A stretch of 37,547 bases of DNA from a bacterium ADurb.Bin243 (lineage in GTDB: Bacteria; Muiribacteriota; UBA9980). A program made the position numbers and the translations under genes. Below the pieces are notes generated by a model. That model made no database searches. It was not told where the DNA came from and saw nothing but the letters and a program-made list of their open reading frames with translations. Below, piece by piece: positions 9,401 to 37,465 of this stretch (positions are counted from its first letter, which is position 1; each line of letters opens with the position of its first letter). The DNA is taken from positions 1 to 37,547 of the forward strand of contig MWBZ01000032.1 of assembly GCA_002069765.1 (NCBI GenBank), written 5' to 3'.

Positions 9401-9484
9401 TTTGAGGGAAAACTGCAAAAAATCGCGCATAGAACGCTCGTCTTCGACGATAAGTATTTTGATTTTCTTCATACCAGCATCCAC
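6440..9484 (-). CDS. Hybrid sensor histidine kinase: REC-PAS-HisKA-HATPase-REC-REC-HPt
   Basis: Cytoplasmic multistep phosphorelay protein of 1014 residues with no transmembrane helix. Domains in order: receiver 1 (about 8-125, phospho-acceptor D59), PAS (about 138-258), a coiled-coil linker (about 258-350), HisKA with H361 in [10 protein letters not shown], HATPase with N-box [15 protein letters not shown] and GSGLGLAI, receiver 2 (D656), receiver 3 (D807 in MDVQMP), and a C-terminal HPt domain with H954 in AAHNLKG. All phospho-relay residues appear present, so a full His-Asp-His chain could run inside one polypeptide. The linker contains an internal duplication, [11 protein letters not shown] near 272 and [11 protein letters not shown] near 311. 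GAGG seven bases before ATG 9484 supports the start. The output partner is not in the window. Confidence 0.95.
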
Positions 9485-9499
9485 GCCTCGTTTAATTAA

Positions 9500-11053: not shown

Positions 11054-11113
11054 ATTACCCGCCCCTTTTATAATTTTTTATTTTTATCGTACAAATCTAA
11101 ATGACCGGTAGTT

Positions 11114-12037
11114 TCAGTCTTTCAACCGGCAAAGCTCGGCCGCTATTTTAGAGCCGAGGTCTGCGTTGCTTTTTATAAGCGCCACGTTCGCTTTAAGCGT
11201 TTTACCAGCGCTTATCTCATGGAGCTTTTCGAGGATATAAGGAGTGTACTTCGGCCCTTCTATATCCGCCGGATCGGCCTTTTCTATTATTTCATCGACC
11301 AGGTGGCTTATTTTATTCGAATTTATCTCGTCCCTGGCGGGAATCGGGTTGGCGATTAAAATTCCCGATTTGCAGAATTTAAAATTCACCGCAACCGCCT
11401 TTGCTATGGCTTCTACCGAATCCATGCGGGAAATGATTTTATGGCCGGATTTACGGCTGTAAAAAGCCGGAAGCTCCGAGCATTTATAACCGATAACGGG
11501 CACGCCGCAGGTTTCGAGATATTCCAGCGTCAGCTTGATATCGAGAATCGATTTTACGCCCGAAGAAACAACGGCCACCTTTGACTTTTCGAATTCCTTG
11601 AGATCGGCCGATATATCGAAAGATTCGGCGGCGCCGCGGTGCACCCCGCCGATTCCGCCGGTGACGAAAACCTTTATTCCGGCTGCGTCGCAGGCCATCA
11701 TGGTGGCCGCGACCGTAGTGACACCGTGTAAGCCGCCTGCGATTACGCTGGAAAAATTATGGCGCGAAACCTTATCGATACGCTTCTTATTTTTAGGATC
11801 GGCGATAAATTTTAAAAGTTTTTCATCCGCGCCCACCATTATTTTTCCGTCTATAATGCTTATAGTCGCTGGAACTACGCCGTTTTTGCGGGCAATAGAT
11901 TCCACTTCCTCCGCCGTTTTTAAATTTTGAGGATAAGGAAGGCCGTAAGTTATTATGGTAGACTCAAAAGCCACCACAGGCTTATTTTTCTTTAACGCTT
12001 CGCGCACTTCGCCGGATAAAACTATGTAACTTTTCAT
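11114..12037 (-). CDS. psuG: Pseudouridine-5'-phosphate glycosidase
   Basis: Cleaves pseudouridine 5'-phosphate to uracil and ribose 5-phosphate, a step in pseudouridine breakdown. The roughly 307-residue length and motifs match the PsuG/IndA family: VVAFESTIITYGLPYPQN with the catalytic-region glutamate, DKVSRHNF with the conserved lysine, TTVAATMMACDAAGI, FVTGGIGGVHRGA, VSSGVKSILDI, and NPIPARDEI near the C-terminus. An AAGGCGG sequence five bases before ATG 12037 makes that the better start, rather than the GTG two codons earlier at 12043. The usual partner pseudouridine kinase (PsuK) is not next to it here. A possible promoter of its own lies at 12073-12102. Confidence 0.93.
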   Translation of the reverse strand: MKSYIVLSGEVREALKKNKPVVAFESTIITYGLPYPQNLKTAEEVESIARKNGVVPATISIIDGKIMVGADEKLLKFIADPKNKKRIDKVSRHNFSSVIAGGLHGVTTVAATMMACDAAGIKVFVTGGIGGVHRGAAESFDISADLKEFEKSKVAVVSSGVKSILDIKLTLEYLETCGVPVIGYKCSELPAFYSRKSGHKIISRMDSVEAIAKAVAVNFKFCKSGILIANPIPARDEINSNKISHLVDEIIEKADPADIEGPKYTPYILEKLHEISAGKTLKANVALIKSNADLGSKIAAELCRLKD

Positions 12038-12072
12038 GGGCACCGCCTTGTTTTTTGATATTAAATTTGATT

Positions 12073-12102
12073 ATTATATGAATTCTTTATTCGCTTTGTA
12101 AA
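12073..12102 (-). promoter_or_regulatory. Possible internal promoter for psuG
   Basis: Read on the minus strand: TTTACA, an 18-bp spacer and a perfect TATAAT, lying in the 3' end of the preceding gene. It would start transcription near 12066, about 29 nt before the psuG ATG. AT-rich chance matches are possible. Confidence 0.4.
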
Positions 12103-12358
12103 TAAAAACCAGTATTTTTGCCACCGCTTCGTAAAGCTCTTCGGGAATCACCACGTCGGGCTCGAATTGAAGCAGCACCTCGCACAGATCGCCGTCTTTA
12201 TAAAACGGCACTCCGTTTTCCCGGGCGATTTTCATAATCTGCTCGGCGATGAATCCCTGGCCTCCTGCGCCTATTTTAGGAGCCGGCTGGGACTCTTTAT
12301 CGTATATGATCGCCACCGCTCTGGGCGGCGTTTTTTTTCCGCCGTTATATCCGCTCAT
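12074..12358 (-). CDS. FlhB C-terminal-domain-like small protein (YlqH type)
   Basis: A 94-residue protein matching the cytoplasmic C-terminal domain of the flagellar and type III export switch protein FlhB: PPRAVAIIYD, a GGQGFIAEQIMKIARENGVPFYKD stretch, and VVIPEELYEAVAKILVFIY. The NPTH autocleavage motif of true FlhB and the membrane part are absent, as in the stand-alone YlqH/FhlB proteins. It lies seven bases after the FliK-like gene and downstream of rnhB, the same order as rnhB-ylqG-ylqH in Bacillus subtilis. The role of such stand-alone proteins is not settled. No flagellar genes are visible nearby. Confidence 0.88.
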   Translation of the reverse strand: MSGYNGGKKTPPRAVAIIYDKESQPAPKIGAGGQGFIAEQIMKIARENGVPFYKDGDLCEVLLQFEPDVVIPEELYEAVAKILVFIYKANKEFI

Positions 12359-12365
12359 AAAGCAC

Positions 12366-13754
12366 CTAAACGCTTATATCGAATTCCGATGGCTGCCCCG
12401 GGCCTGAAACATATTTAAAAAACGGAGGAAGAAAATCTATTTTCTTTCCGACGACGACGGTAAAATAATAACCGCCGCCCAGGGCGGAATCTATAAATTC
12501 CTTGTTCTGAAGGTATTTTTCATTTATATATTCTTTTATCGCCGCACTTTCTACGAAAATATAAAACCCGGCGGCCGAGTCTTTCTTTTTTACATTTACG
12601 CGCAACGGCCCGAGTTTTGACAGCGTAAGATACATATCGAGCGCGATAACCCTGCCGTTTTCTTTTTCCACGGAGCACAGCGCTTCATGCTCTTCCCCGT
12701 CGTAACCGAAAGGCATTTTAAACAATTCGTTTCCGGCTATGGCTGAATAAAGCTCTATAAGCGCGCGGTTTTCTATAAGAGAGGCGACGCTTTCCGCAAC
12801 CCGTTCATAACGCCCGGCGGGAGCCTCGGTTTCCGGCCGCTCCGAAGCGTTTTTTTTCTCCAGCTCTCCGGCCAGCGTTATAAGGTCTTTGAGCAGATTC
12901 TTTTTCGGCGGCGAAACCTCTTGCTGCCGTTCAGAAACGGAAAACCTGAAAAACTCGCTCAGGTAATTTATGACGCCGGTTTTTGCGGAACTTCGAGAGC
13001 TGATAATACCGGCTACGCGCCTTGCTGCGGAAGCGGCCTTTTTATTTTTATTGTCGGGGTCCGCCGCTATATCGGCAAGCCCGGAAGCAAGAGCGGTTGC
13101 CGGCGAAGAAAAAAGCCTGTTGTAATTAATGTTTTGCGTTCGAAGAACGTTAACGAGCGCCGACGCGAGCTTTAAAGATTCCGCCGTCAGTGCGATATTC
13201 GATTTTGTCAATAAAGCGGCGCCGTCGGCTAAAATTTCAATATCCTGAACCGCAGCGGCGGGCCGCGAACCTGAAACCGGCTCCGCCTGAACGGCGGCGA
13301 CGGCTTTAGCCAGCGAAGATGCGGCGCGGTCTATGGAACGCGCGTCCAATTTCATTCCGAATTTCAAAAACGAATCTAAAATGTTTTCAGCCTGAGGGTT
13401 TTTAAAATTTGCGCCCACGCTTTTTAAAATATCGGCTGCGCTGCGCTCTCTGGCTGTAAAAACTGCTTCGGCGGACGAATCCGCGAGCTTAAAGACGAGC
13501 TTGCCGTCCGCCTCGCGCCTGAGCAGTTTAAGCGAGACCTGCTCTCCGACTTTGAGCGATATATCCGCGAGAGACAGCAAAAACCGGTTATTTATTGATA
13601 CGAGGGCGGCGCCGTCGGAAAAACCCTTTACCACGGCGGCATAAACCTGCCCTTCGCGCGGCGCGAACGCCTGCGCTCCGCCTCCGCCAGGGCCTGAACC
13701 GGCAGGCGGCGTCGGAGCGACGTTATTGATTTTAGCTACGTTTATTTCTGGCAT
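12366..13754 (-). CDS. FliK-like hook-length-control-domain protein (YlqG type)
   Basis: A 462-residue protein without signal peptide or membrane helix. The N-terminal third has a Gly/Pro-rich patch (about 13-30) followed by a short beta-rich segment. The middle is Ala/Ser-rich and helical. The C-terminal part (about 330-445) resembles the FliK/YlqG C-terminal Flg_hook domain, with the pattern LSKLGPLRVNVKKKDSAAGF followed by a helix and a ALGGGYYFTVVV strand. The assignment rests on this weak similarity plus its position between rnhB and an FlhB-C-like gene, which repeats the Bacillus rnhB-ylqG-ylqH order. The Shine-Dalgarno sequence is weak. Without a profile search the domain call is moderate. 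Confidence 0.72.
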   Translation of the reverse strand: MPEINVAKINNVAPTPPAGSGPGGGGAQAFAPREGQVYAAVVKGFSDGAALVSINNRFLLSLADISLKVGEQVSLKLLRREADGKLVFKLADSSAEAVFTARERSAADILKSVGANFKNPQAENILDSFLKFGMKLDARSIDRAASSLAKAVAAVQAEPVSGSRPAAAVQDIEILADGAALLTKSNIALTAESLKLASALVNVLRTQNINYNRLFSSPATALASGLADIAADPDNKNKKAASAARRVAGIISSRSSAKTGVINYLSEFFRFSVSERQQEVSPPKKNLLKDLITLAGELEKKNASERPETEAPAGRYERVAESVASLIENRALIELYSAIAGNELFKMPFGYDGEEHEALCSVEKENGRVIALDMYLTLSKLGPLRVNVKKKDSAAGFYIFVESAAIKEYINEKYLQNKEFIDSALGGGYYFTVVVGKKIDFLPPFFKYVSGPGQPSEFDISV

Positions 13755-13799
13755 TTTTCCAACCGTAAATAATCAATTTTTTCTGGCGCATCGGCCCGG

Positions 13800-20192: not shown

Positions 20193-22445
20193 CTATTCGA
20201 AAACTTTTACCTTGTCGTTTATATAAACAGTTGAATTTTTAAGCCATATCTTTATCCGCTCGGGATTGACGAATTTCACGTCTTCGATATTCTGTTTTAT
20301 TATGGCCGGTATGGTGGTTATTTCAAGGCGGTCGTTGAAGTAGCTCACGCTGACGCATATTTTTTCGATTCCGCTCGCGTCTTCGAATATTTTAACGGCC
20401 GTTATCATTATGGCGGCTATTTCCTGAAAAACCTCCGCCAGGTTCTTGCTTGCAGTTTTAAATTTTATATTGAGCAGGTCCGGCTTTAAAGTCGAGATAT
20501 CGCACTGCGGCTTTACGTTTGGAATCAGCCTGTCGATAACCGTAGTAAGAAGCCTGGCCTTTTCTTTAGGATCGGCGAATTCGTTCTTGCTGACTTCGAG
20601 AGGCAGCCTTATCAGAGCGCCGTTTTCAAGGTACGAAAGGCTGTTGCGCTGGGGCGCCCATACGAGGTGGGATTTCTGCGTGGCCGTGTTAGTTATCTGC
20701 TTGAGGCCGCTTTTGTCTATATTAACGGTATAAATGTTGTCCGCGCCGCTTTTGTTGGATATGAAAGCTATTTTATCGGAGGCCGGAGAAAAAACCGGAA
20801 AATCGTTAAAAGCGCCGTCGTCTATTATGGCCTTGGTTTCGCCGCGGGTTTTAAGGTTATAAAACATTATGTCGGATTTCTTGCCGTCATAAGCCACGTA
20901 AGCCAGATAATATCCGTTAGGCGATATGCACGGGTTTTTAAGCGGGCCGGGAAGTATTTTCTCCGGGACCCTGTTTTCAGTTTCGGCCTCGGAGCTGGAA
21001 TATATTTCCGCCCTGGCGACTCTAAGCCTGTCGAGGACCGACTCTTTGATATCGCCCTTCTGCGCCATAAAAGTATGTACGGAACCGTAAAAATCGGCGG
21101 ATGATATTTTATCGATATTGATAGTCTGCTTGATAACTATATTGGAAACGTTCACGACCGAAAAATCGTTGAGATAAAAAAAGAAAAAAGCGCATGATCC
21201 GCCGACGAGAACCATGCTGGCGAAAGTCGAAAACATTTTTCTGAACGACACTTCGAAAAGATCGCTCAAAAATTCAAAAGCCAGGATTATCATTCCAAGA
21301 GGAAGAAAAATATTGGCGGCGAAATAAAAAGGCTTGAGAAAAATAAAGGGTATTTTCTGCCCGATGCCGCCGTTTTCAAGAAATATTTCTTTAACTCCCG
21401 CGCTGGTAACGAAATTTTCAGCTACCGAAGCCATCGAATAAACGCCCAGCGTGAAAAGAAAAATTCTGTATCCGCGACCGATATGCTCGTCCGCGAGAAA
21501 AATTATCGTCGTCGAAACGAGAGTGAGCATGATGCTTAACTTTACGATAAATTCGTTCAAGTTAAAATCCTGCGGAAGCGCTATATTAAGTTGCTTTATT
21601 CTTTCGGCAAGCTGAAAATCCACTCCCAGCCCCGAAGAAAAACACATATAAAAGACCGTCCCTATAAAAGACAACAGCGCGATTCGTATTTTGGTACCGG
21701 AACTTACGAAGGTGACGGGGCACAGCAGCAGGAAAAGATAAGCCGCCGTGAAACCCATGGCTAATTTTCCGGCATCGGTATTGGTTGTGATCTGGGGATA
21801 GGCGGCGAATAGAAAGACGGAAAATACGAGAAGCGAAATCAGCGTGCGAAAATATTTGGCAAACCGGCCCTCGGGGCTCGCATAAACCACGATCATCTGA
21901 GGTTTCGGTTTGGAGGCCGCCCTGGATTTTAAGGCCGCGTTTTTCGCTTCGCGCGCGTTCTGATTTTCCTGGCGCGTGTCCGCCGGCTGCTGTCCTGTTT
22001 CTTCGACGCCTGAGCCTGCGGCTTCGACCGACGATATTATATCGGCCGAAGAGTCGTCGATCGTTTCGCGCGCATAAGACTTTACCGCCTTCGGCGCATG
22101 GGGCGCCTGCGCTTTAGACGCGGCGGCACGTTCTTCAGAAGGCTCGTCCGAAACGAGTTCGGCCGATATGGAAGACGCGAAATCCAGCGGGTTGGTCGCC
22201 ATAAGATCGCCGAGCGCTTTTTTCACTTTGGCGTGGGCGTGTTCCACATGAAGCCGCACGTCGGAGCGCGGGTAGTTAATGTTCTGATCCAGGATTTCGA
22301 ACAGCTGCTTTATTTCGGAAACCGAATAAACGCTCCAGTTCTTTATGTTATCAATAGCGCGCAATCCGTCGATTTTGATTTTAGCGGACGGATCGTTGAT
22401 TAAACCTATTAATTTTTGAAGGTCTATCGCATTCGACTGGTCCAT
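20193..22445 (-). CDS. Composite membrane protein: HEAT-like N-terminus, multi-helix membrane block, PD40 repeats
   Basis: Unnamed 750-residue protein. Order: an N-terminal helical segment (about 5-85) with HEAT-like periodicity, a low-complexity Ala/Ser/Glu linker (about 90-180), about seven transmembrane helices (about 195-430), and roughly three TolB-like PD40 beta-propeller blades (about 490-615: ISPNGYYLAYVAYDG, FSPASDKIAFISNKSG). An unrecognised alpha/beta domain follows (about 630-750). Three blades are too few for a closed propeller alone. ATG 22445 has GAGGAG ten bases upstream. The gene ends 17 bp from the convergent ABC permease. The PD40 block is predicted outside the cytoplasm if the helix count is odd. 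The function is unknown. Confidence 0.8.
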   Translation of the reverse strand: MDQSNAIDLQKLIGLINDPSAKIKIDGLRAIDNIKNWSVYSVSEIKQLFEILDQNINYPRSDVRLHVEHAHAKVKKALGDLMATNPLDFASSISAELVSDEPSEERAAASKAQAPHAPKAVKSYARETIDDSSADIISSVEAAGSGVEETGQQPADTRQENQNAREAKNAALKSRAASKPKPQMIVVYASPEGRFAKYFRTLISLLVFSVFLFAAYPQITTNTDAGKLAMGFTAAYLFLLLCPVTFVSSGTKIRIALLSFIGTVFYMCFSSGLGVDFQLAERIKQLNIALPQDFNLNEFIVKLSIMLTLVSTTIIFLADEHIGRGYRIFLFTLGVYSMASVAENFVTSAGVKEIFLENGGIGQKIPFIFLKPFYFAANIFLPLGMIILAFEFLSDLFEVSFRKMFSTFASMVLVGGSCAFFFFYLNDFSVVNVSNIVIKQTINIDKISSADFYGSVHTFMAQKGDIKESVLDRLRVARAEIYSSSEAETENRVPEKILPGPLKNPCISPNGYYLAYVAYDGKKSDIMFYNLKTRGETKAIIDDGAFNDFPVFSPASDKIAFISNKSGADNIYTVNIDKSGLKQITNTATQKSHLVWAPQRNSLSYLENGALIRLPLEVSKNEFADPKEKARLLTTVIDRLIPNVKPQCDISTLKPDLLNIKFKTASKNLAEVFQEIAAIMITAVKIFEDASGIEKICVSVSYFNDRLEITTIPAIIKQNIEDVKFVNPERIKIWLKNSTVYINDKVKVFE

Positions 22446-26240: not shown

Positions 26241-27467
26241 ATGCCAGTCGTTAAAATCAGCGAAACCGTTTACAGCATAGGGGTAAAACATCCCGAACTC
26301 GACGTCTTCGACCTTCTCATGCCGCTCAAACATGGAACAACTTATAATTCTTTTTTAATAAAGGGCGAAAAAAACGTAATCATCGATACGGTCAAATTAA
26401 AATTTTTCGACGAATTCATAGGCAACATAAAACAGATAATCGATCCCGCGGCAATAGACTATATAGTGATCCAGCACAACGAGCTCGACCATTCCGGATC
26501 GCTTTTAAAGCTTCTCGAACTCGCGCCCAAAGCGCGCATCGTCATTTCAAAGGCGGCCGAAAATTTTCTGGCCAATTCTTTCAACTCCAAACTTGACGTA
26601 ACTAAGGCCGACGACTCCACGGAAATAAAAATAGGCCCGTCGCAAACTTTAAAGTTCGTAGCGGCACCTTTTCTTCACTGGCCCGACACTATGTTTACCT
26701 ACTACAGGGAAGAAAAAACGCTTTTCACGTGCGACGCGTTCGGGGCCCATTACTGTCAGAGAAACGGCGTATATTCAAGCGAAATGAGCCGCGAAGAGTA
26801 CGACACAGATTTTTTCGCGCAATTCAAGATATATTACGAAATCATAATGCGCGTCTACAGCACGAAGGTAGTGGCGGCTTATAACAAAATAAAAGAAATG
26901 GAAATCGATTTGCTGCTTCCTTCGCACGGCCCGTTCATAAACTCGGGAATCGGCACGCATATCAAGCATTATCTCGACTGGAGCTTCGCGCCAGCTTCCG
27001 CAGGCGTAAAAAAAGCCGTAATAGTATATTCGTCAATGTACGGAAGCACCATGAAAATGGCTTATCACATAGAATCTCTTCTGAAAATGCGCGGCATAAA
27101 AACTTTCGTCGCCGAAATCCCTTTCGCGATGAGCGAATCGCAGATGTCCGCGGTCATCGCAGAAATTTCTTCCGCCGACGCGGTGCTGTTCGGCTCTTCG
27201 ACCGTTTGCTCGACGGTATTAAAACCCATGTGGGATTTTCTATTCTTTCTGGCGACCGTCGAATTGAAAGGTAAGACCGCCGGCGTATTCGGCTCTTTCG
27301 GCTGGGACCCTCAGGGCCTGAAAATAATAGAACTTGTGCTCACCAATTATAAAATGAAAGTCATAAAAGACATGTATAAAGTAAAATTCGTCCCTTCGGA
27401 AGAAAAACTTATAGCTTCGGACGCGTTCGTCAACGAACTCGTCGCATCACTGAACGGCGCCGAATAA
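26241..27467 (+). CDS. fprA: Flavodiiron protein (FprA type: O2/NO reductase)
   Basis: Reduces oxygen to water, or nitric oxide to nitrous oxide, in the cytoplasm of anaerobes. The 408-residue protein has an N-terminal metallo-beta-lactamase-like di-iron domain and a C-terminal flavodoxin domain. All expected iron ligands are visible: H79, E81, D83 and H84 in QHNELDHSG, H146 in HWPDTMF, D165 in TCDAFGAHY, and H229 in SHGP. The flavodoxin part (from about 255) has VIVYSSMYGSTMKMAYHI, GSSTVCSTVLKPMW and GVFGSFGW for FMN binding. No rubredoxin domain is fused, so a separate electron donor is needed. AGGA lies seven bases before the ATG. It is a single-gene unit between the fprA promoter and a strong terminator. 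Confidence 0.96.
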   Translation: MPVVKISETVYSIGVKHPELDVFDLLMPLKHGTTYNSFLIKGEKNVIIDTVKLKFFDEFIGNIKQIIDPAAIDYIVIQHNELDHSGSLLKLLELAPKARIVISKAAENFLANSFNSKLDVTKADDSTEIKIGPSQTLKFVAAPFLHWPDTMFTYYREEKTLFTCDAFGAHYCQRNGVYSSEMSREEYDTDFFAQFKIYYEIIMRVYSTKVVAAYNKIKEMEIDLLLPSHGPFINSGIGTHIKHYLDWSFAPASAGVKKAVIVYSSMYGSTMKMAYHIESLLKMRGIKTFVAEIPFAMSESQMSAVIAEISSADAVLFGSSTVCSTVLKPMWDFLFFLATVELKGKTAGVFGSFGWDPQGLKIIELVLTNYKMKVIKDMYKVKFVPSEEKLIASDAFVNELVASLNGAE

Positions 27468-27495
27468 AAATACGCTCCGGAAAAATTCTGTATCT

Positions 27496-27536
27496 AAAAA
27501 AGGCCGCCACGATTGTTTTTCGTAACGGCCTTTTTT
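27496..27536. terminator. Bidirectional rho-independent terminator
   Basis: AAAAAAGGCCG (27496-27506) pairs perfectly with CGGCCTTTTTT (27526-27536), with a further ACGA/TCGT pairing inside the loop. The T-run on each strand serves both the fprA transcript and the opposing giant-protein transcript. Confidence 0.88.
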
Positions 27537-27576: not shown

Positions 27577-30500
27577 TTAGAATTTTTTCCAGAAGCTGGT
27601 TTTGGTCTGAGGCTTTATAAGCTGGCGGGCCTTTTCGGCATAAGGAGAATCGATGGGCGCGTGCGTTATGACTGAAATATTAGCGTTGACCGACTCTTCT
27701 ATCATGCCTTTATCGCGGTACGCCTGGCCTAGTTTAAAATGAGCCTCGAAGTTCTTTTCGTCGTACTTGATGACCTCTTTATAATGTGAAATAGCTTCTT
27801 CCGTGAGCATCTTTTTAAGGTACACGTCGGCGAGTTTAAAATGCGCTTCTACATAATCATGCTTCTGCGCTATGGCCGCTTTATACTCGGAAATAGCCTC
27901 GTTCATCATTCCTTTTTCTTCGTTTATGAGGCCCAGGTAATAATACGGCGCGTGCTGCTTGGGAGTCATTTTAATTATTTTTTCGAACTCTTCGCGCGAT
28001 TCCTCGAAAAGAGAATTTTCGAAAAGCGTCACGGCCAGGTTGAACCTGGCGTCGTAACTATTCGGGCTCAGCGATGAAATTTTTCTGAACTGCTCGATGG
28101 CTTCGGTTATGAAATTTTTAATTTTATAGAGCTTTCCGAGCTCGAGATTTGCGTCTATCCTGTTTTCGTTGATTTTCAGGGCTTCCTTATACTGTATGAT
28201 GGCGGCGTCATGGTCTTTCTGCCTTGCGTAAAGGGCCCCGAGTTTGAGCCGGGCCTCGATGTTTCCGGGATGAAAGCCTATTATTTTGCGCAGGTAATTT
28301 TCGGCCTGAGTGGCGTTCTGGCCTTCTTCGGAAGCTTCGGCCACTGTGAAAAGGGTTTCTAAATCATCGGGTTTAAGGCTTAAAAGCTCGTTTCCCGTCT
28401 CGATAACGTCGTACCACATCTGCTTATTGAAATAGCACTGCGAAAGCTTCGAAAGAACGGTTTCATAATCCCCGGCTTTTTTGGCTTTGAGTTCGCGGTA
28501 TAAAGTGATGGCGTTGTCGAAATCTCCAAGTTTAAAATAAAGGTCTCCTAATGCTATAACGGCGGCCGGATCGTTTTTAGAAATTTCGACGGCGCGCTTG
28601 TAATGCCTGACAGCCTCCTCGTTATTTTCCATCGCCTGATAAGCGCCCGCCAGAGCCAGGAGGCAATCGAACCTGGACGGATCGGCTTCGAGTGCTTTTT
28701 CGAACTGCGATATCGCCTCGACGTATTCGCGGGAATCGGCAAAAATCCTGCCAAGGTAATAATTGGCGTCGGCGAGCGTCGAATTTATCGCGAGCGCCTT
28801 TTTAAGCTCTGCCCGGGCTTCGTCGTAGCGTTCGGTCTTATAGTAAATTTCTCCCGCCAGAGCGAATATTTTAAAATCGTTCGGATTGGCCGCTCCCGCT
28901 TTTTTCAGCGCGGTGAGCGCGTCAGCGTATGATTTTTTAAGATACGATATGACTGCGGTTTCGAAGAGCGCTTCGCTGTTGGAAGGGTTTATGGCCGCGG
29001 CTTTCTGGAAAGTAGAAAGCGCTTTTTCATAATACTTGGCGTCTTTATAATAGCCGCCCAGACGATAAAGCAGGGAGTCGGACTCCGGGCTTATGGCTAT
29101 TGCCTGCTCTATAAGCCCTATGGCGTTTTCCATATCTTCGCGTTCCCTGTAGATCTGCGAAAGGCTTATATACGAATCTATATGTTTGGAATTGGTCTCC
29201 ACTGCGCGCCTGAAATAAAGCAAAGCCTCGTCTACCGAGCCGCTTCGCCTTTTCGCGACGCCGGTGTTATAAAGCGCCTCAAGGTTCTTTCCGTCGGCGC
29301 CCAATACCGTTTCAAAAGCCAGAACGGCTTCTTCGTCGCGGCCGAGAGCCATCAATATCTTTCCTTTGAGGTTGAGATATTTTTTTTCGTTGGGGGCTAT
29401 TTCCAGCGCGGTTTTAATCAAATCTAAGGCAGTCTGGTTTTTTTCGAGTTTGTAATTTATCTCGGCGAGGCTGTAAATGACCGCATGGTCTTTTCCTGAA
29501 ATTTCGAGAAGCTTTTCATAAGCGCCTGCGGCTTCGCCGAGGCGGCCCGTTTCATTATAAATGAAGGCGAGCTTCGAAAGAGCGTCCACGTTGTCCGCCT
29601 TGATCATAAGGACTTTTTCGAACCATTCGACGGCCTCGTCATAAAGTTTTTTATCGTATGTGGCCTGGGCTATTTCGTTGAGCGCGTCTACGTTGGCCGA
29701 GTTCTTTTTGATAACTTTGAGAAGATGCGTTATGGCCTTTTCGGGTTTTCTGATGAAACGGTAAAGCCTGCCGAGCTCGAAGCACACTTCTACCATGTCG
29801 GGTTTATATTCTATCGCCTTTTCATAATATTCTATGGCTTTGGTTTCATGGAAAGTTTCCTGGTAGAGTTTGCCGAGATAATAGTATCCCATGGGCGCTT
29901 CCGGCTCACGGGCGATATAATCGTGCATATGCTTCAAAGCTTTCTTTTTGTTCTCCTCGCCGCTCAGGGCGCAATAAAGGGCGCCGAGCTCATAAAATAC
30001 CTGGGCGTTCTTATTGTCGAGCTCGAGCAGCCGCTCGAAAATCTTGATGGCTTCCTCGCCGCGTCCCGCCTTTATAAGCGCGTAGCCGAGCTCCCACATG
30101 GCCCTGTCGAATTTGGGCGCAAGGTTTATCGACTGGTAGAACATCTTAATGCCGCCTTCTATGTCGCCGACGCGCGTGAGTACCTGGGCCTTGTTGTAAT
30201 AAAATTCGGGCATGTCGGATTCGGTGATATTCTGCTCTATGCTGTCGAAAATAGTTTTAGCCTCGAGCACCTTTCCCTCTTCGTTGTAGATAATGCCCAG
30301 CTCGAGCTGCGCCTTGTAGTAGCGGGGATTTATTTCGCAGCATTTGATGAAGCTTGTTTCTGCGTCCCTGTAGCGTTTGAGTTCTTTCTGAGAAAGCCCC
30401 AGGTAGTAATGGGCGTCGGTGTTGTTCGGGTCTTTTTTGAGCGAATTCAGAGCCTCTTCGAGCGCCTGTTCGCAATGCCCTGATTTATAAAGCGCTTCGG

Positions 30501-33500
30501 CGAGTTTGGCGTAAGTATCGGAAGTATTGCGGTTAAGGGTTATTTTCTTGAGCCTTAAAATAGCGTCGTTATACCTGGCGTGCGCGATCTCTATGAGGGC
30601 GAGATGGTAATTAGCCTCGACGTTGGCCGCGTCTTTCGCGAGCGCTTTTTTGAATTCGGTTTCGGCCATTTCATAATTATGCTCTTTGAAATTTATAAAA
30701 CCGAGCCGGTTGTGAATAAGCGGTATTTCGCAGGCGAGCGAAAGCGCCTTTAAATAATTCTGCCTTGCGGCGGCGAAATTTTCGAGGTTGTAATGCGATT
30801 CGGCCAGATAGAAAAACGAGTCGGCCGAAGTTCCGTCGATTTTTACGCACTGCTCGAATTCGTTTCTGCAACGCTCGAAAAGGCCCTGTTCGAAGCAGGC
30901 CAGGCCCGAAAGATAGCGGGCCCTGAAGCTGTCCGGTTTGAGTTCTATTACGGCCGCAAGATGCTTGAGCGCGTCGGAGTATTTTTTCTGCTTGAGATAA
31001 AGCTCTCCGATTTCGGTCCTGGCGTTGATATTGCCGGCGTCGGACTTTATCGCCTTTTCAAAATACGTGAGCGCGTTAGCTGTTTCGCCGAGCTCTTTAT
31101 AGACCATCGCGGATTCGTAATCGAAACCGAGCGCTATGTAATGTTTGAGCGCATCGGAGAACTGTGAGCGCGAACGGTAGAGCTTCGCCAGATTTATCAT
31201 GGCGCCGGTATTTTTAGGGTCGATTCTGAGCATTTCGTTGAACACCGAAAGCGCTTCAGGCTCGTGCTTGAGCTTGAGATAAATTTCCGAAAGGCTCGTC
31301 ATTATTCCGAGATCGTCCGGCCTCAATTTAAGGGCTTTCTGGTACAGAAACATCGCTTTATCGAGCTGACCTCTGGCGTAAAGTATCTTGGCCATTCCGG
31401 CGCATGCTTCGATGCTGTTTTCATCGACTTCGAAAAGCCTTTCATAAAATGAAAGGGCGTTATTCGTTTCGCCCAGGCCTTCTTTGATTTTAGCCAGGTT
31501 TAAAAGCGCCCTGGCGTTTTTAGGCTCGGCGGACAGCAGTTTCAAAAAATAACTGACGGCTTCCGCGAACCTTCTGGCGTTCATGAGGCATTCGCCTATT
31601 TCAAGGGTTATTTCAGGCATATCGGGCGAAATTTCGAGAGCCTTCATAAACAGCGTGGTTGCCTCTTCGTAATTTTCATTCATTTTCCTGATGCGGGCCA
31701 GCTTGATAAGGGCTTCCTTGTTGGCCGGCTGGAGCTCGATCACCTTTTTGAAGCCCGCGGCGGCGGCGGTGAAATTTGAAAGCGCCATGTAAGAAAGTGC
31801 GCTCATGTAATTTGCGTTAACGTTGAAAGGCTCTTTTTCGATGACCTTATTAAAGCACGCCAGGGCTAATTCTTCTTTATGAAGATCGAAGTAAAGAGCA
31901 CCCAGGGCCATGTTCACTTCGCAATATTCCGGCGCGATCTCGCGGCATTTCATATAATTGGCGACCGCCGCGTCGAAATTGTTCATCTTTCTGGCGCAGT
32001 GGCCGTTGAGAAGATATGCGTTAAAATCGCCCGGCTTTATTTTAATATATTTATTGAGCGCGAGCTGAGCCTCTTCGTAGTTCTTTCTGCCGTAGTCTAT
32101 TTCGGCTATCTTATAAAGCGCGTCGGTGTTGTCGGGCTCGTAAGTGAGAAGCCTCTTGTAATGCGTCATGGCGTCGTCGAAACGGCGCAGTTCGAACTCG
32201 CACCTGGAAACGCTCGATATGAAATCGATGTTGTCCTCGTATTCGCCGGCGACGCGGTTCAAATAGAATATGGCGTCGTTATAGTTGGAAGTGCGCGTGT
32301 AAAGCACGCCGAGTTTGAATTCAGCTTCCTTGAGCCGCGGCGAGATATTAAGCAGCGCTTTATATTTTTCGGCGGCTTCGGAGAAACGGCCGAGCTTGAA
32401 GTATGTGTCGGCGAGTTTTTTGACTATTTCGCCGTCGGACGGAGCCAGGGCGAAGGCTTTTTCATAATAAGCCGAAGCCTGGGACGCGTTGTTTTTGATC
32501 GCGGCGATCTCGGCTAATTGAATATAACATGTGAGAGAGTATTTTTCGTCTCCCATAGCGACTATCGCCTCGAATTTCTCGTGCGCTTCGGCGTACTGCT
32601 TGAGCATGAAATGGCAGAACCCGCATTTGAGCGAAGCTTCTACGGCCGTGGAATCGAGCGAAGCGGCCTTCTGGTAAGAATCGAGAGCGCGCTTATAGTC
32701 TTCGAGCTCGTAATAAACGGCGCCCAGGTTCATAAGGCAGTCGATGAAATCGGGCTCGATTTCGAGGGCCTTTTTCATCATAAGTATGGCTTCGGAAACG
32801 GCCCCCTGCTGCTTGAGTATGAGCGACATTCCCAGATACGATCTGTAATCTTTAGGATTTTCTTCTATAGCGTTTTTAAACAGCACAAGCGCTTCGGAGC
32901 TGTTGCCCATTTCGCTGTATGTGCGGCCCATTTCAAAATAAGCTTTCGAGTTTTTCGGGGCGATGTCGAGCGCGCTTTTGAAGTGCCGCATGGCCTCTTC
33001 GAGCATTCCGCGGTCGCGGTAAACTACGCCGAGCTCTATATTGGTTTCCAGGTCGCCCGGATCTATTTCATAGGCGCGCTTGAGAGTGTCGAAAGCGTCG
33101 TTGACGCGGTTGTCGTGGAGCTGACAGCGGGCCAGAAGAACATACGCCGGAGCGTGTTTAGGCTCGTACTCGATGACGGATTTCAGTTCGGATATGGCCT
33201 TATAGTTCTGATTGAGCGCTATGAGGTTACGCGCGTAGCCGATGCGAGCCTCTATATTGGCGGGCTCTTTAAGCACGAGGGCCTCGAATATGGAAACCGA
33301 TTCGGCGTATTTGAATTTGGAATAAAGCAGGCCGGCCAGAAGCAGCCTTACTTCGGCGTTATCCGGTTCGAGCTCTTCTACGCGCCTGAAATTTTCGATA
33401 GCTTCCTCGTGCATGTTTTTATCTTTATAAATTTTGCCGAGCTCGATGAATATTTTAACGTTCATGGGCTGCAGCGAGGCCGCTTCGTTGAGAAGGGCGA

Positions 33501-35589
33501 CCGCCTTTTGATACGCGCCCTGGATATTGTAAACGCCTGCGAGCTTGAAGTACGTGTCTATATTTTTAGCGCTGAGCGACTTCTGCAGATGCTCGGCGGC
33601 CTGCTCCAGGCTGCCCTGCGCGAGATAAATTAGCCCCAGGTTATAGTGTATGCGGTAATCGTCCGGCGATATCGCGAGCGCTTCTTTAAAATGCTGTATG
33701 GCGTCGTTTTTCTGCCCCATCTCTCCGCAGGTGATGGCCAGCGTGTAAAGCGTTTCCGCGGAATTTGGATTATATTCCAGGGCTTTTCTGAGGTATTTCA
33801 CCGCCTGGTCGAACATTTTTTTACGGGTGTAAATGGAGCCGAGATTGATGTAACTGACTGTATCGGCGGGGTTTATTTCCATCGCGCGGCGGAACTTCAG
33901 TATGGCTTCGTCGAGCATGGAATTGCAGGCGTAGGTTTCGCCAAGGAGGTTGTGCGCCTCGACGTTATACGGCAGCAGCTGAACGGCTTTTTGAAGATAA
34001 ATAAGCGCGTCGTCATAAATCGAGTTTCTGTAAAGGGCTTCGCCCAGTTTGAGATAAGCCTCGCTGTTGGCCGGATTTACTTCGAGCACTTTCTTGAAGG
34101 AAATTATAGCGTTGGCGTAGAGGCCTTCCATTATATAAGCGGTTCCCGCGTAAAAAAGGGTCTCTTCGTTGTAAGGGTCGGACTCTATGACCTTCTCCCA
34201 TTCGCCGATGGCCTCTTTAACGAGGCCTTTATGGAATTTGGCGAGTCCGTTTTCAAAACTGCACTGCACGTGGAATTTTCCGTTTTCTTTCAAAACGCGC
34301 GCAGTGGCTTTTCTTACTTCAGCGGACTTGTCTTTGAGCAAAGGGACCAGTCCGTCGAGCGATTTTTCATTGCCGATACGGCCCAGGGCGGCTATAAGCG
34401 AAAGTTTGACGTCTTCGGATTCGTCGTCCAATAATTTTATAAGGTGCTCAACGCACAGGTCGTTTCCGGTGTTGGCCAGCGCCTCGCAGGCCGTCTTTCT
34501 GACTATGGCGTTATTGTCGGACAGCGAGCGGCACAGCGGATCGATCACTTCGTCGGTGGCGATCCTGCCGAGAGTGGTAATAATATTGATCCTGACTTCT
34601 TTATTTTCGTCTTCGATATATTTGATGAGAGTTTCCGTGCATGACTCATTGGCGTTGGAAACCAGGGCTCGGGAGACGTTGGCCTTGACCTGTGAATTGC
34701 GGTCGGCCATGGCCGTTAAAAGGGCCCCTATGGCTTTTTCGCCGCCGATTTTTTCTATGGCGACGGCCGCATTGGCGCGGACTTCCCATTGTTTGTCGGA
34801 AAGAGCCTCTATCAGGGAATCTATGGCGCGCTCGTCGCGGATCTCGCCGAGCGCCAGAACGCTGTATTTGCGGACGTCGGCGTTAGTGTCTTTCAGGGCG
34901 GCGATGAGCGGCTCGATGGCGTTTTCGTCGCCGAGCCTGATGAGCGCGAAGGCCGCGGCCGAGCGGACCTGGCCCGAGCTGTCTTTGAGCGAGTCTATTA
35001 TGGGCTTCTGGGCGCTGAAATCGCCTATATTGGCGAGGGCCTCGATCATTTTTATTTTAAGCGGTCCGAAACCGGAAGCCAGGGCCTTTACCAGAGGCTC
35101 CACCGCCCTGGCGCTGCACAGCGACCCCAGAACCGAAACCGCTGTCATGCGGACGTCGTTGTTATTATCTTCAAGGAGTTTAATGACGTATTCCACGGCT
35201 TTTTCGTCGCCTATGCGCCCGCAGGCCGAGACGGCCGCGGCGCGGATATCGCCGTTGGGATCCGACAGCATTTTGATGAGGCTTTCCACCGCGCGCTTGT
35301 CGGCGATTTCACCAAGGGCCACTATAGCCGCTTCTCTGACTTTTTTGTTGCTGTCTTCGAGCGCTTTGACGAGAGAATCCACCGAGCGGGCGTCTTTTAT
35401 TCTGGAAAGCGCGTTGGCCGCTAATATCTGGACCTCGGCGTTGTTGTCGGTGAGGCTCACGCACAGCGGCTCCACTACGATGCGCGCGTCCATCTGTGAA
35501 AGGGACTTTACGGCTTCAAGCCTTACCGAAATAGAATTGGATTTTAAATCGTCAATAAGCTTTTCGACTTTTTTATCCATAAAAATCAT
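27577..35589 (-). CDS. Giant HEAT-TPR repeat scaffold protein (2670 residues)
   Basis: Unnamed cytoplasmic protein with no signal peptide or membrane helix. Residues about 8-437 form 14 HEAT (PBS-lyase-type) repeats of about 31 residues, each of the form A-PL--AL-D----VR--A--ALG-I. From about 447 to 2650 the chain is an almost unbroken array of 34-residue TPRs, roughly 60-65 units with the usual G-Y/A-L----P spacing. The tail is short and basic (KTSFWKKF). No catalytic domain is seen, so a scaffold or assembly platform is the likely role. Two in-frame starts, ATG 35589 and ATG 35580, share one AAGGA and cannot be separated. The promoter lies at 35633-35661 and a terminator at 27496-27536, so it is a single-gene unit. 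One uninterrupted reading frame of this length argues that it is functional. Confidence 0.92.
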   Translation of the reverse strand: MIFMDKKVEKLIDDLKSNSISVRLEAVKSLSQMDARIVVEPLCVSLTDNNAEVQILAANALSRIKDARSVDSLVKALEDSNKKVREAAIVALGEIADKRAVESLIKMLSDPNGDIRAAAVSACGRIGDEKAVEYVIKLLEDNNNDVRMTAVSVLGSLCSARAVEPLVKALASGFGPLKIKMIEALANIGDFSAQKPIIDSLKDSSGQVRSAAAFALIRLGDENAIEPLIAALKDTNADVRKYSVLALGEIRDERAIDSLIEALSDKQWEVRANAAVAIEKIGGEKAIGALLTAMADRNSQVKANVSRALVSNANESCTETLIKYIEDENKEVRINIITTLGRIATDEVIDPLCRSLSDNNAIVRKTACEALANTGNDLCVEHLIKLLDDESEDVKLSLIAALGRIGNEKSLDGLVPLLKDKSAEVRKATARVLKENGKFHVQCSFENGLAKFHKGLVKEAIGEWEKVIESDPYNEETLFYAGTAYIMEGLYANAIISFKKVLEVNPANSEAYLKLGEALYRNSIYDDALIYLQKAVQLLPYNVEAHNLLGETYACNSMLDEAILKFRRAMEINPADTVSYINLGSIYTRKKMFDQAVKYLRKALEYNPNSAETLYTLAITCGEMGQKNDAIQHFKEALAISPDDYRIHYNLGLIYLAQGSLEQAAEHLQKSLSAKNIDTYFKLAGVYNIQGAYQKAVALLNEAASLQPMNVKIFIELGKIYKDKNMHEEAIENFRRVEELEPDNAEVRLLLAGLLYSKFKYAESVSIFEALVLKEPANIEARIGYARNLIALNQNYKAISELKSVIEYEPKHAPAYVLLARCQLHDNRVNDAFDTLKRAYEIDPGDLETNIELGVVYRDRGMLEEAMRHFKSALDIAPKNSKAYFEMGRTYSEMGNSSEALVLFKNAIEENPKDYRSYLGMSLILKQQGAVSEAILMMKKALEIEPDFIDCLMNLGAVYYELEDYKRALDSYQKAASLDSTAVEASLKCGFCHFMLKQYAEAHEKFEAIVAMGDEKYSLTCYIQLAEIAAIKNNASQASAYYEKAFALAPSDGEIVKKLADTYFKLGRFSEAAEKYKALLNISPRLKEAEFKLGVLYTRTSNYNDAIFYLNRVAGEYEDNIDFISSVSRCEFELRRFDDAMTHYKRLLTYEPDNTDALYKIAEIDYGRKNYEEAQLALNKYIKIKPGDFNAYLLNGHCARKMNNFDAAVANYMKCREIAPEYCEVNMALGALYFDLHKEELALACFNKVIEKEPFNVNANYMSALSYMALSNFTAAAAGFKKVIELQPANKEALIKLARIRKMNENYEEATTLFMKALEISPDMPEITLEIGECLMNARRFAEAVSYFLKLLSAEPKNARALLNLAKIKEGLGETNNALSFYERLFEVDENSIEACAGMAKILYARGQLDKAMFLYQKALKLRPDDLGIMTSLSEIYLKLKHEPEALSVFNEMLRIDPKNTGAMINLAKLYRSRSQFSDALKHYIALGFDYESAMVYKELGETANALTYFEKAIKSDAGNINARTEIGELYLKQKKYSDALKHLAAVIELKPDSFRARYLSGLACFEQGLFERCRNEFEQCVKIDGTSADSFFYLAESHYNLENFAAARQNYLKALSLACEIPLIHNRLGFINFKEHNYEMAETEFKKALAKDAANVEANYHLALIEIAHARYNDAILRLKKITLNRNTSDTYAKLAEALYKSGHCEQALEEALNSLKKDPNNTDAHYYLGLSQKELKRYRDAETSFIKCCEINPRYYKAQLELGIIYNEEGKVLEAKTIFDSIEQNITESDMPEFYYNKAQVLTRVGDIEGGIKMFYQSINLAPKFDRAMWELGYALIKAGRGEEAIKIFERLLELDNKNAQVFYELGALYCALSGEENKKKALKHMHDYIAREPEAPMGYYYLGKLYQETFHETKAIEYYEKAIEYKPDMVEVCFELGRLYRFIRKPEKAITHLLKVIKKNSANVDALNEIAQATYDKKLYDEAVEWFEKVLMIKADNVDALSKLAFIYNETGRLGEAAGAYEKLLEISGKDHAVIYSLAEINYKLEKNQTALDLIKTALEIAPNEKKYLNLKGKILMALGRDEEAVLAFETVLGADGKNLEALYNTGVAKRRSGSVDEALLYFRRAVETNSKHIDSYISLSQIYREREDMENAIGLIEQAIAISPESDSLLYRLGGYYKDAKYYEKALSTFQKAAAINPSNSEALFETAVISYLKKSYADALTALKKAGAANPNDFKIFALAGEIYYKTERYDEARAELKKALAINSTLADANYYLGRIFADSREYVEAISQFEKALEADPSRFDCLLALAGAYQAMENNEEAVRHYKRAVEISKNDPAAVIALGDLYFKLGDFDNAITLYRELKAKKAGDYETVLSKLSQCYFNKQMWYDVIETGNELLSLKPDDLETLFTVAEASEEGQNATQAENYLRKIIGFHPGNIEARLKLGALYARQKDHDAAIIQYKEALKINENRIDANLELGKLYKIKNFITEAIEQFRKISSLSPNSYDARFNLAVTLFENSLFEESREEFEKIIKMTPKQHAPYYYLGLINEEKGMMNEAISEYKAAIAQKHDYVEAHFKLADVYLKKMLTEEAISHYKEVIKYDEKNFEAHFKLGQAYRDKGMIEESVNANISVITHAPIDSPYAEKARQLIKPQTKTSFWKKF

Positions 35590-35632
35590 ACCGTCCTTGT
35601 AAAAAAATGAACACTAAATCCGAAATTACTAT

Positions 35633-35661
35633 ATTATATCATATAACCGGAGAAATAACAA
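35633..35661 (-). promoter_or_regulatory. Promoter of the giant HEAT-TPR gene
   Basis: On the minus strand: TTGTTA (35661-35656), a 17-bp spacer and a perfect TATAAT (35638-35633). Initiation near 35626 gives a leader of about 37 nt. Confidence 0.65.
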
Positions 35662-35707: not shown

Positions 35708-36169
35708 TTATTTATAAATCTCAACGAGTTTTTCCGCCGACCTTCTTATCGCTTCCCTGAAATTAAGCCCGACCACGTGCTCGCCCGTTTTCGAGTCGCG
35801 AAACATCGATTTTTCGCCTTCTTCGAGAAGGTGGGAATAATCGACCGTTATCTCTTCGCCGGCCGCTATGGCGCGGGCGGAAAAAACGAAACCGAGGTGC
35901 CACAGGCAATTAGGTTCGAAAGAGTGGTTGTAATAGCATTCGTCGCTCCATTTATTGGAAAAACTGTAATATTCTTCGAACCATCTCACGCAGCTCTGAT
36001 ATTCCACGGAGTCTTGCGGCATGCGGTTGATTTCTTCGATCCTGTACAGCTTATCGATTTGATCCGGCGCGGATACGACCGTGCCGCGCGCGACGTCTTT
36101 CAGCGCGAATATTCCCATGCCCGCTTTGTTTATTAAAGAATGTTTGACTTCGTAATCGATCATTATCAT
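35708..36169 (-). CDS. SET-domain protein (putative protein-lysine methyltransferase)
   Basis: A 153-residue protein made almost entirely of a SET domain. The N-terminal part has SLINKAGMGIFALKDVARGTVV. The core motifs YNHSFEPNCLWH (asparagine and histidine of the S-adenosylmethionine/pseudoknot site) and AGEEITVDYSHLL (catalytic tyrosine) are present. Pre-SET and post-SET zinc clusters are absent, as in other short bacterial members. The expected activity is methylation of protein lysines with S-adenosylmethionine, with target unknown. AAGG six bases upstream supports ATG 36169; a second in-frame ATG lies two codons later. It is divergent from the tRNA gene and upstream of the giant gene on the same strand. 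Confidence 0.88.
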   Translation of the reverse strand: MIMIDYEVKHSLINKAGMGIFALKDVARGTVVSAPDQIDKLYRIEEINRMPQDSVEYQSCVRWFEEYYSFSNKWSDECYYNHSFEPNCLWHLGFVFSARAIAAGEEITVDYSHLLEEGEKSMFRDSKTGEHVVGLNFREAIRRSAEKLVEIYK

Positions 36170-36427: not shown

Positions 36428-37465
36428 TCACTGATACGTTTCATTTTTTTTCATAAAGTCGCCGAAGCTTATGCCATAGGAAATCATAAACCATGAGGCG
36501 GGCAGGGCTATCAAAACTATCTGCAGCGCGTGGAATAAAACCGCATAAGCCACCGCCGCGCTTTCGGGTACGGAATAAAACATGAGCCCTTCCTTGCAGA
36601 AATAATGGAACGTCCCCACGAAGCCGGGCGGAGGCGGAATCACCAGCGCCACGCTTATCGCGGCCTGTACGAAGCACGCGCACAAAAAAGGCGAGGCCAG
36701 GTTTATGGACATCGCCTTCATGGAAAACATTATAGTCGCGGCGGAAACGAACCAGGAAATCACGGTATACGCAAAAGCCGCCGCCAGGCGCTTTTTATCT
36801 TTAAAAACGCCCGCGCCCGTATTGAATGCCTTGATAAGGGCGGATATTTTAGCGCCGGCCTCCGGCGCGCGGCGATGAAAAACGGCGGACAGCCGGCCGC
36901 GCATGGCGCTTTTTTTAGAAACCATCTTTAGCGCCGCGAAGCCGGCGGCGAACACCGCGGCCACCAGCACGAGAGCCGTTTTAATATACCCCACCAGGCT
37001 GTTGTCTATGGGAAGAGGCGAAAACAAAAGCACGAACAGCAGCAAAAAAACCTGGCCGGCGAGATCCAGCAGGCGTTCGACGAATATGACGCCGAGCGTG
37101 GCGCTGAAGCTCGCGCCGCAGGCTTTTTTCATTATAAGGGGACGGGAAAATTCGCCGAGCCTGAACGGCAGGACATAGTTGGCGAAAAGCCCTATGTAAA
37201 AAACTTTCAGCGAGTCGGAATAAGACGCGGCGGCGCCGTCTAAAAGCATATGCCAGCGCGCCGCCCTTATAAGCTGTGTATAGAAGAAAGAAAATACCGC
37301 CGCCGAAAGCAGCGCAATATCCAGGCCGCGCGCCCTGGCGGCGGCGGCGGAGAGATCGGCGTTTCGCAGGGCGAGCCAGAGAAAAAAGAGCCCCAGTATA
37401 AGGCTTACGGATATTTTTAAATATTTCATATATCTATCGAAAAATACAAAATGGCTTTTATTCAT
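36428..37465 (-). CDS. Lysylphosphatidylglycerol synthase-like membrane protein (flippase-like, UPF0104)
   Basis: 345-residue integral membrane protein with about seven or eight helices, matching the LPG_synthase_TM/AglD-like family (YbhN type). The signature segment after the second helix, ANYVLPFRLGEFSRPLIMKK followed by LGVIFVERLLDLAG, is clear, and IPPPPGFVGTFHYF appears near the C-terminus. The aminoacyl-transferase domain of true MprF is absent, so a lipid or sugar-lipid handling role is more likely than lysine transfer. ATG 37465 and ATG 37429 are both possible starts; neither has a good ribosome site, and the family usually begins close to the first helix, which favours 37429. The 66-bp repeat lies just 15 bp upstream of ATG 37465. 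Confidence 0.87.
   Translation of the reverse strand: MNKSHFVFFDRYMKYLKISVSLILGLFFLWLALRNADLSAAAARARGLDIALLSAAVFSFFYTQLIRAARWHMLLDGAAASYSDSLKVFYIGLFANYVLPFRLGEFSRPLIMKKACGASFSATLGVIFVERLLDLAGQVFLLLFVLLFSPLPIDNSLVGYIKTALVLVAAVFAAGFAALKMVSKKSAMRGRLSAVFHRRAPEAGAKISALIKAFNTGAGVFKDKKRLAAAFAYTVISWFVSAATIMFSMKAMSINLASPFLCACFVQAAISVALVIPPPPGFVGTFHYFCKEGLMFYSVPESAAVAYAVLFHALQIVLIALPASWFMISYGISFGDFMKKNETYQ

Follow-up and report, generated by a model that had tools for sequence, protein, structure and literature searches.

Escherichia coli LapB (YciM) carries nine tetratricopeptide repeats (TPRs) and a rubredoxin domain, and is proposed to bring acyltransferases and glycosyltransferases together where lipopolysaccharide (LPS) is assembled (PMC6358824). 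Published ranges for TPRs are 3-16 repeats per domain (PMC4304861) and 2-20 per protein (PMC7279152). Here we describe an 8-kb gene in a 37,547-nucleotide stretch of DNA (contig MWBZ01000032.1, assembly GCA_002069765.1; hereafter the window) from the Wallbacteria-like bacterium ADurb.Bin243, a member of a candidate phylum with little or no known cell biology. The gene encodes a giant alpha-solenoid of 14 HEAT and 65 TPR units that is under purifying selection, keeps its repeat number and is best conserved at its ends, and in other families of the phylum it occupies an operon position next to genes for lipid A, a lipid of the outer membrane. A preliminary description, made from the DNA letters alone, had seen in it a very long flexible scaffold, able to gather many partners or to act as an internal ruler. 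Our analysis confirmed and sharpened the observation of a giant scaffold and added an unexpected link to lipid A genes.

Like LapB, for which a scaffold of LPS enzymes has been proposed, the giant is a TPR protein tied to lipid A acyltransferases and glycosyltransferases. The build is different. Nine TPR motifs in LapB compare with 65 TPRs and 14 HEAT units in the giant, the N-terminal membrane anchor of LapB has no counterpart, and the C-terminal rubredoxin or zinc ribbon (PF18073) is not among the best 25 of the 48 Pfam families that match the giant, all 25 of which are repeat families. These three features rule out membership in LapB. PF18073 had no match anywhere in the window's genus and elsewhere in the phylum matched almost only RadA-sized frames; with no clear candidate seen, the genomes of the phylum seem to lack LapB. 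We infer that the giant may work along the lines of LapB with a different build, which is a similarity of role and not a claim of membership. If the lipid A link is true, it would represent a different way of organising LPS assembly in bacteria apparently without LapB.

Among solved structures, the best sequence matches were designed consensus TPR proteins, alphaRep (an idealised HEAT protein) and the superhelical TPR domain of O-GlcNAc transferase (OGT; 1w3b), which were also among the fold matches. All have far fewer repeats than the giant, and the catalytic domain of OGT is absent from it; no fused catalytic domain of the OGT/SPINDLY type is among the best 25 of the 48 Pfam families, the repeats spanning residues 1-2647. 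The top fold hits included Ski3, Ctr9 and the intraflagellar transport A (IFT-A) subunit TTC21B/IFT139, eukaryotic long all-TPR scaffolds that act in complexes, and Pfam TT21 ARM models match the giant as well. These chains are shorter (the matched structures have about 890-1,370 residues), and their global template modelling scores of only 0.2-0.3 indicate a shared repeat fold and not whole-chain homology. Measured against the published ranges, it was fair to call the array one of the longer ones, as the preliminary description did.

Architecture and repeat number of the giant

In the AlphaFold model, residues 6-435 form 28 helices, or 14 pairs, and the Pfam HEAT_2 match (E = 1e-86) agrees with tandem paired helices of about 31 residues. 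The TPR units were counted with a 34-position profile trained on the protein itself and tiled by dynamic programming, which gave 65 units. An earlier, stricter tiling pass had given 62; the remaining three fill gaps of 32, 26 and 33 residues. The best Pfam TPR match was TPR_2 (E = 6e-217), and the tandem 34-residue units follow the pattern W/L4-L7-G/A8-Y11-A20-F24-A27-P32, with A20 present in 54, G/A8 in 55, P32 in 39 and L7 in 38 of the 60 regular units. Since profiling and modelling give 14 and 65, the earlier counts of 14 HEAT and about 60-65 TPR repeats were right. The earlier statement that the chain has no enzyme domain, signal or membrane helix also held. No enzyme or catalytic domain is among the best 25 of the 48 Pfam families, no membrane helix was found (highest 19-residue hydropathy mean 1.21), and no signal peptide was seen by eye at the N-terminus (MIFMDKKVEKL...). 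The protein is net acidic. The AlphaFold models contain well-ordered solenoid stretches and low-confidence hinges at residues 437-461 and 2389-2408, the global shape not being fixed by the models (predicted template modelling score 0.38-0.40). The very long scaffold described earlier is consistent with these data, and its flexibility is only partly supported. Very recent duplication of near-identical units was considered and rejected: Tandem Repeats Finder detected no DNA-level array in the gene, and the similarity of units within the protein has no excess between neighbours.

We surveyed 40 genomes of the phylum, labelled G000 and so on within families labelled f1 and so on. Clear orthologues were found in f1, the window's genus (G000-G003), in f2 (G004) and in f4 (G006 and G010). 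In f6 (G008) a C-terminal fragment with the characteristic tail lies at a contig end; the N-terminal part was looked for among the contigs of G008 and not located. In the remaining families of the survey other TPR giants are present, and a tail match of comparable score was not found. A single-sequence scan of genome contigs hit same-genus loci only, including Candidatus Wallbacteria GWC2_49_35 and UBP16_UBA6123; as this method reaches close relatives only, absence from other phyla does not follow from it. Against G003, there were no gaps over 2,670 codons at 82% identity, with a ratio of nonsynonymous to synonymous substitution rates (dN/dS) of about 0.05 and synonymous divergence (dS) near saturation. 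Against G001, 2,382 codons were covered, with dS of 0.71 and dN/dS of 0.028. Neither frameshifts nor repeat loss, which the preliminary description had named as signs of missing constraint, were found in the same-genus orthologues, and these codon comparisons show purifying selection on the giant. A chance open reading frame (ORF) is ruled out by 2,670 stop-free codons, a dN/dS of 0.03 and the intact orthologues.

Repeat counts across families were taken from the profile tiling because the MAFFT alignment of G004 drifts in the middle of the array. The window protein, G003, G004 and G006 all have 65 TPR units, the G004 and G006 proteins (both 2,656 aa) being about 23-25% identical to that of the window. 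Unit 31, or the 35th when counted from the end, is the only one that lacks eight residues in all four proteins tiled, and unit 40 exceeds the standard by one to three residues in all of them. To score the register, unit-similarity matrices were double-centred and their diagonals compared. The similarity peaked at offset zero, with z = 5.4 for window and G006, 3.9 for window and G004, and 3.8 for G006 and G004, and no other offset, up to eight units in either direction, gave z above 2.0. Read from either end, the G010 fragments fit the same register (z = 4.6 and 3.0). As the similarity peaks at zero offset only, the 65 units correspond one to one, and on balance no whole unit has been gained or lost since these families had their common ancestor. 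The internal ruler suggested earlier is consistent with these data, and an array frozen across families at such low identity is a natural test case for repeat number encoding length.

The conservation is unevenly distributed. Identity across families is 33-36% for the HEAT block and 38% for the first two TPR units, and it reaches 59% for the last unit (65) between the window protein and G006. TPR units overall are about 22% identical, against a background of 19% for non-corresponding units of the same two proteins. The HEAT block and the C-terminal cap are the best conserved parts, the cap and unit 65 leading on the TPR side, and the middle drifts. Fixed ends, fixed length and a drifting middle are the pattern that a strut with docking ends would show.

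Lipid A genes beside the giant in other families

Outside its own genus, the giant lies upstream of an LpxL-like acyltransferase gene in three families (f2, f4 and f6), and this adjacency holds in 4 of the 4 extra-genus genomes where the giant was found. A WaaA-like transferase of 3-deoxy-D-manno-octulosonic acid (Kdo) follows in two of these families and LpxK in one overlapping operon. In that operon (G004) the giant leads a series of overlapping genes on one strand, which continues with the LpxL-like (PF03279) and WaaA-like (PF04413) genes, a GT4-type glycosyltransferase, LpxK (PF02606, E = 1e-76) and PdxA. In G006 the start of the LpxL-like gene overlaps the stop of the giant by 4 bp and WaaA comes next; the only LpxK and the only LpxC of this genome are located about 13 kb and 27 kb downstream on the same strand. 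LpxL and then WaaA also follow in G010, and in G008 LpxL comes after the giant fragment with an IS200-like transposase remnant between them (L039:5808-6332). The LpxL-like and WaaA-like proteins score well below the NCBIfam equivalog cut-offs. The WaaA copies linked to the giant in f2 and f4 group together as a clade (98/98, subject to a long-branch warning), consistent with a single inherited operon. LpxC was found in 38 of the 40 genomes, and by this gene content the phylum makes lipid A.

A second pairing of a TPR gene with LpxL was observed in f1 and f2: the gene of a different LpxL-like acyltransferase is overlapped or directly adjoined there by a smaller TPR gene (664-802 aa). No TPR protein tied to LpxL turned up in a search of the literature.

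The proposed strut and its rivals

We tentatively propose that the giant is a cytoplasmic alpha-solenoid strut of fixed length, with two ends that dock lipid A and Kdo enzymes and a middle that acts as spacer. Such a solenoid would comprise the N-terminal HEAT block, the TPR superhelix of 65 units with the irregular unit 31 and two predicted hinges, and the C-terminal cap. The candidate partners are the inner-membrane enzymes of lipid A and Kdo assembly, namely the LpxL-like acyltransferase, the WaaA-like transferase and LpxK, and successive enzymes of the pathway might be held together or, if distance matters, at a set distance. A consensus TPR superhelix has about 8 repeats and 7 nm per turn. 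If the giant follows it, its length is estimated at some 55-60 nm plus the HEAT block. The stronger version, in which a length-locked strut of tens of nanometres organises the lipid A pathway without LapB and the repeat number sets the distance, is quite unlikely in our judgement.

Several points weigh against the strut. LapB binds enzymes of lipid A or LPS and regulates LpxC; the giant is tied to such enzymes only by the position of its gene near those of LpxL, WaaA and LpxK, seen in other families, and a place in one operon is no proof of a common function. Within the window's genus it is monocistronic and lies apart from LpxL, WaaA, LpxK and LpxC; with the linkage absent there, the function proposed for it in that genus is the weakest point of the case. 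The giant has neither a membrane anchor nor a zinc ribbon. The G008 fragment gave no significant diagonal (z of 1-2), so the whole-array register was not confirmed there, and 11 of the 65 units of G004 score below zero with the window-trained profile. Length is almost equally constant in a second TPR giant of the phylum, so the constancy may reflect the folding of solenoids and not a ruler.

Doubtful, but the best placed of the rivals, is a general multi-partner hub whose clients bind as short peptides in the TPR groove, the lipid A neighbourhood being an accident of gene order. Peptide binding is typical of TPR grooves, and unit-specific conservation over large distances is strongest at helix A positions 4, 6, 12, 13, 14 and 16, a part of them directed towards the groove. 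The missing linkage in the window's genus and the very many other TPR and HEAT genes in the genome would also suit a hub. Within the genus, however, groove positions 2 and 9 rank with the fastest to change and core positions are slow; between close relatives, the mean for the five groove positions 2, 5, 9, 12 and 13 is about 0.30 substitutions per site compared with about 0.1 in the core. A hub should moreover withstand the addition and removal of units, yet their number is constant, and the adjacency to LpxL recurs in every extra-genus genome with the gene.

The constant number could also result from ordinary slow evolution after one ancestral duplication, with indels harmful to a stacked solenoid and length itself without function. 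We consider this unlikely, even though purifying selection alone accounts for the missing indels and within families the second TPR giant is constant in length (1722/1722, 1535 three times, 3112/3112 and 3124/3124). Constancy is not automatic for TPR proteins here, as the smaller TPR protein of the same genus varies (776, 790 and 802 aa), and duplication or deletion of a whole unit would leave the stack intact, yet none was observed between families at 23-25% identity. A cytoskeleton-like element that polymerises or lies along the membrane, shaping the cell or positioning envelope machinery, is very improbable: the great length and a conserved cap that could give end-to-end contact would fit, but only solenoid repeats are among the best 25 of the 48 Pfam families, no cytoskeletal gene adjoins, and the protein is acidic and has no membrane helix.

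Gene, neighbours and other solenoid proteins

The gene interval given earlier is exact by ORF analysis and lies on the minus strand. The promoter and terminator that had been described as the gene's own were both located, the terminator being a strong one (Table 1). The promoter ends 43 bp from the ATG, and both hexamers are kept in G003, the spacer between them having diverged. The consensus scan missed the terminator, and the call rests on fold energy and z. An A tract on its other side makes it bidirectional, so that it can serve both convergent genes. By these signs the giant of the window's genus is a separate transcription unit.

Table 1. Positions of the giant, its parts and related features (window coordinates unless a locus label is given)
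Feature	Position	Strand	Basis or remark
Giant HEAT-TPR gene	27577..35589	-	single ORF, 2,670 aa + stop, ATG at 35589
14 HEAT units, residues 1-435	34285..35589	-	Pfam HEAT_2; 14 helix pairs in AlphaFold model
Predicted hinge between HEAT and TPR blocks, residues 437-461	34207..34281	-	predicted local distance difference test score below 50; partly overlaps TPR unit 1
65 contiguous TPR units, residues 441-2647	27649..34269	-	tiling; helix pairs in two AlphaFold models
TPR unit 31, 8 residues short, residues 1461-1486	31132..31209	-	tiling
C-terminal cap, residues 2648-2670, SPYAEKARQLIKPQTKTSFWKKF	27580..27648	-	conserved between families
Promoter TTGTTA-17-TATAAT, extended -10 TG	35633..35661	-	scan
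Ribosome-binding site AAGGA	35594..35598	-	read from sequence; conserved in G003
Intrinsic terminator, 11-bp stem (two G-U pairs) + U tract	27495..27530	-	fold -25.5 kcal/mol, z = -7.4
Small SET-domain protein, upstream neighbour	35708..36169	-	Pfam SET E 8e-12; 118 bp gap to giant
LPG_synthase_TM / flippase-like membrane protein, upstream of SET gene	36428..37465	-	kept in genus
Flavodiiron-type protein (ODP beta-lactamase + flavodoxin), convergent downstream neighbour	26241..27467	+	
Second TPR-LpxL pairing	L052:1578-4887, L073:5219-8441, L072:5553-8862, L050:10703-13533		
Second TPR giant in own genome	L034:4711-8649 and 8609-13777 (contig C17)		
Second TPR giant, further loci	L054, L055, L063, L064, L066, L069, L070, L071		

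The SET gene, which is lysine methyltransferase-like, is kept in the genus, its order relative to the giant being the same in G002 and G003. Beyond the SET and flippase-like genes, G002 has an L13 gene and one more ORF, which its sequence marks as S9. The flavodiiron-type neighbour is replaced in G003 by other genes and is not part of the giant's system.

Two further proteins in the window had been mentioned along with the giant. For the membrane protein described as HEAT-containing (20193-22445), Pfam gives only PD40 beta-propeller repeats. For the second TPR protein, before the cyclase (616-2853), the TPR assignment received weak support (Pfam TPR_19, E = 4e-5).

The second TPR giant, which is longer still, recurs across the phylum, and the HEAT-TPR giant is probably not the longest TPR system in its own genome. 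The second giant is encoded by two adjacent genes in f1 (1,722 + 1,312 aa, as in the window's own genome), f2 (523 + 2,476) and f5 (1,616 + 1,535), and by one fused gene in f3 (3,112) and f7 (3,124). Its parts are colinear and the place of the split depends on the family, an arrangement suggesting that both chains form a single stacked solenoid. The second giant resembles the HEAT-TPR giant in its giant TPR array, near-constant length and C-terminal cap motif (AKDAKRSLxHIEKS compared with AEKARQLIKPQ), and differs in an N-terminal cysteine motif (CPF...C...C...C) instead of a HEAT block, in a RimO-type radical SAM neighbour in f1, f2 and f3, and in being split in some families. The genome as a whole is very rich in solenoid proteins, with many further HEAT and TPR proteins, among them a 1,858-aa protein on its contig C24 (L053:5588-11164) that matches almost only HEAT-type repeat models.
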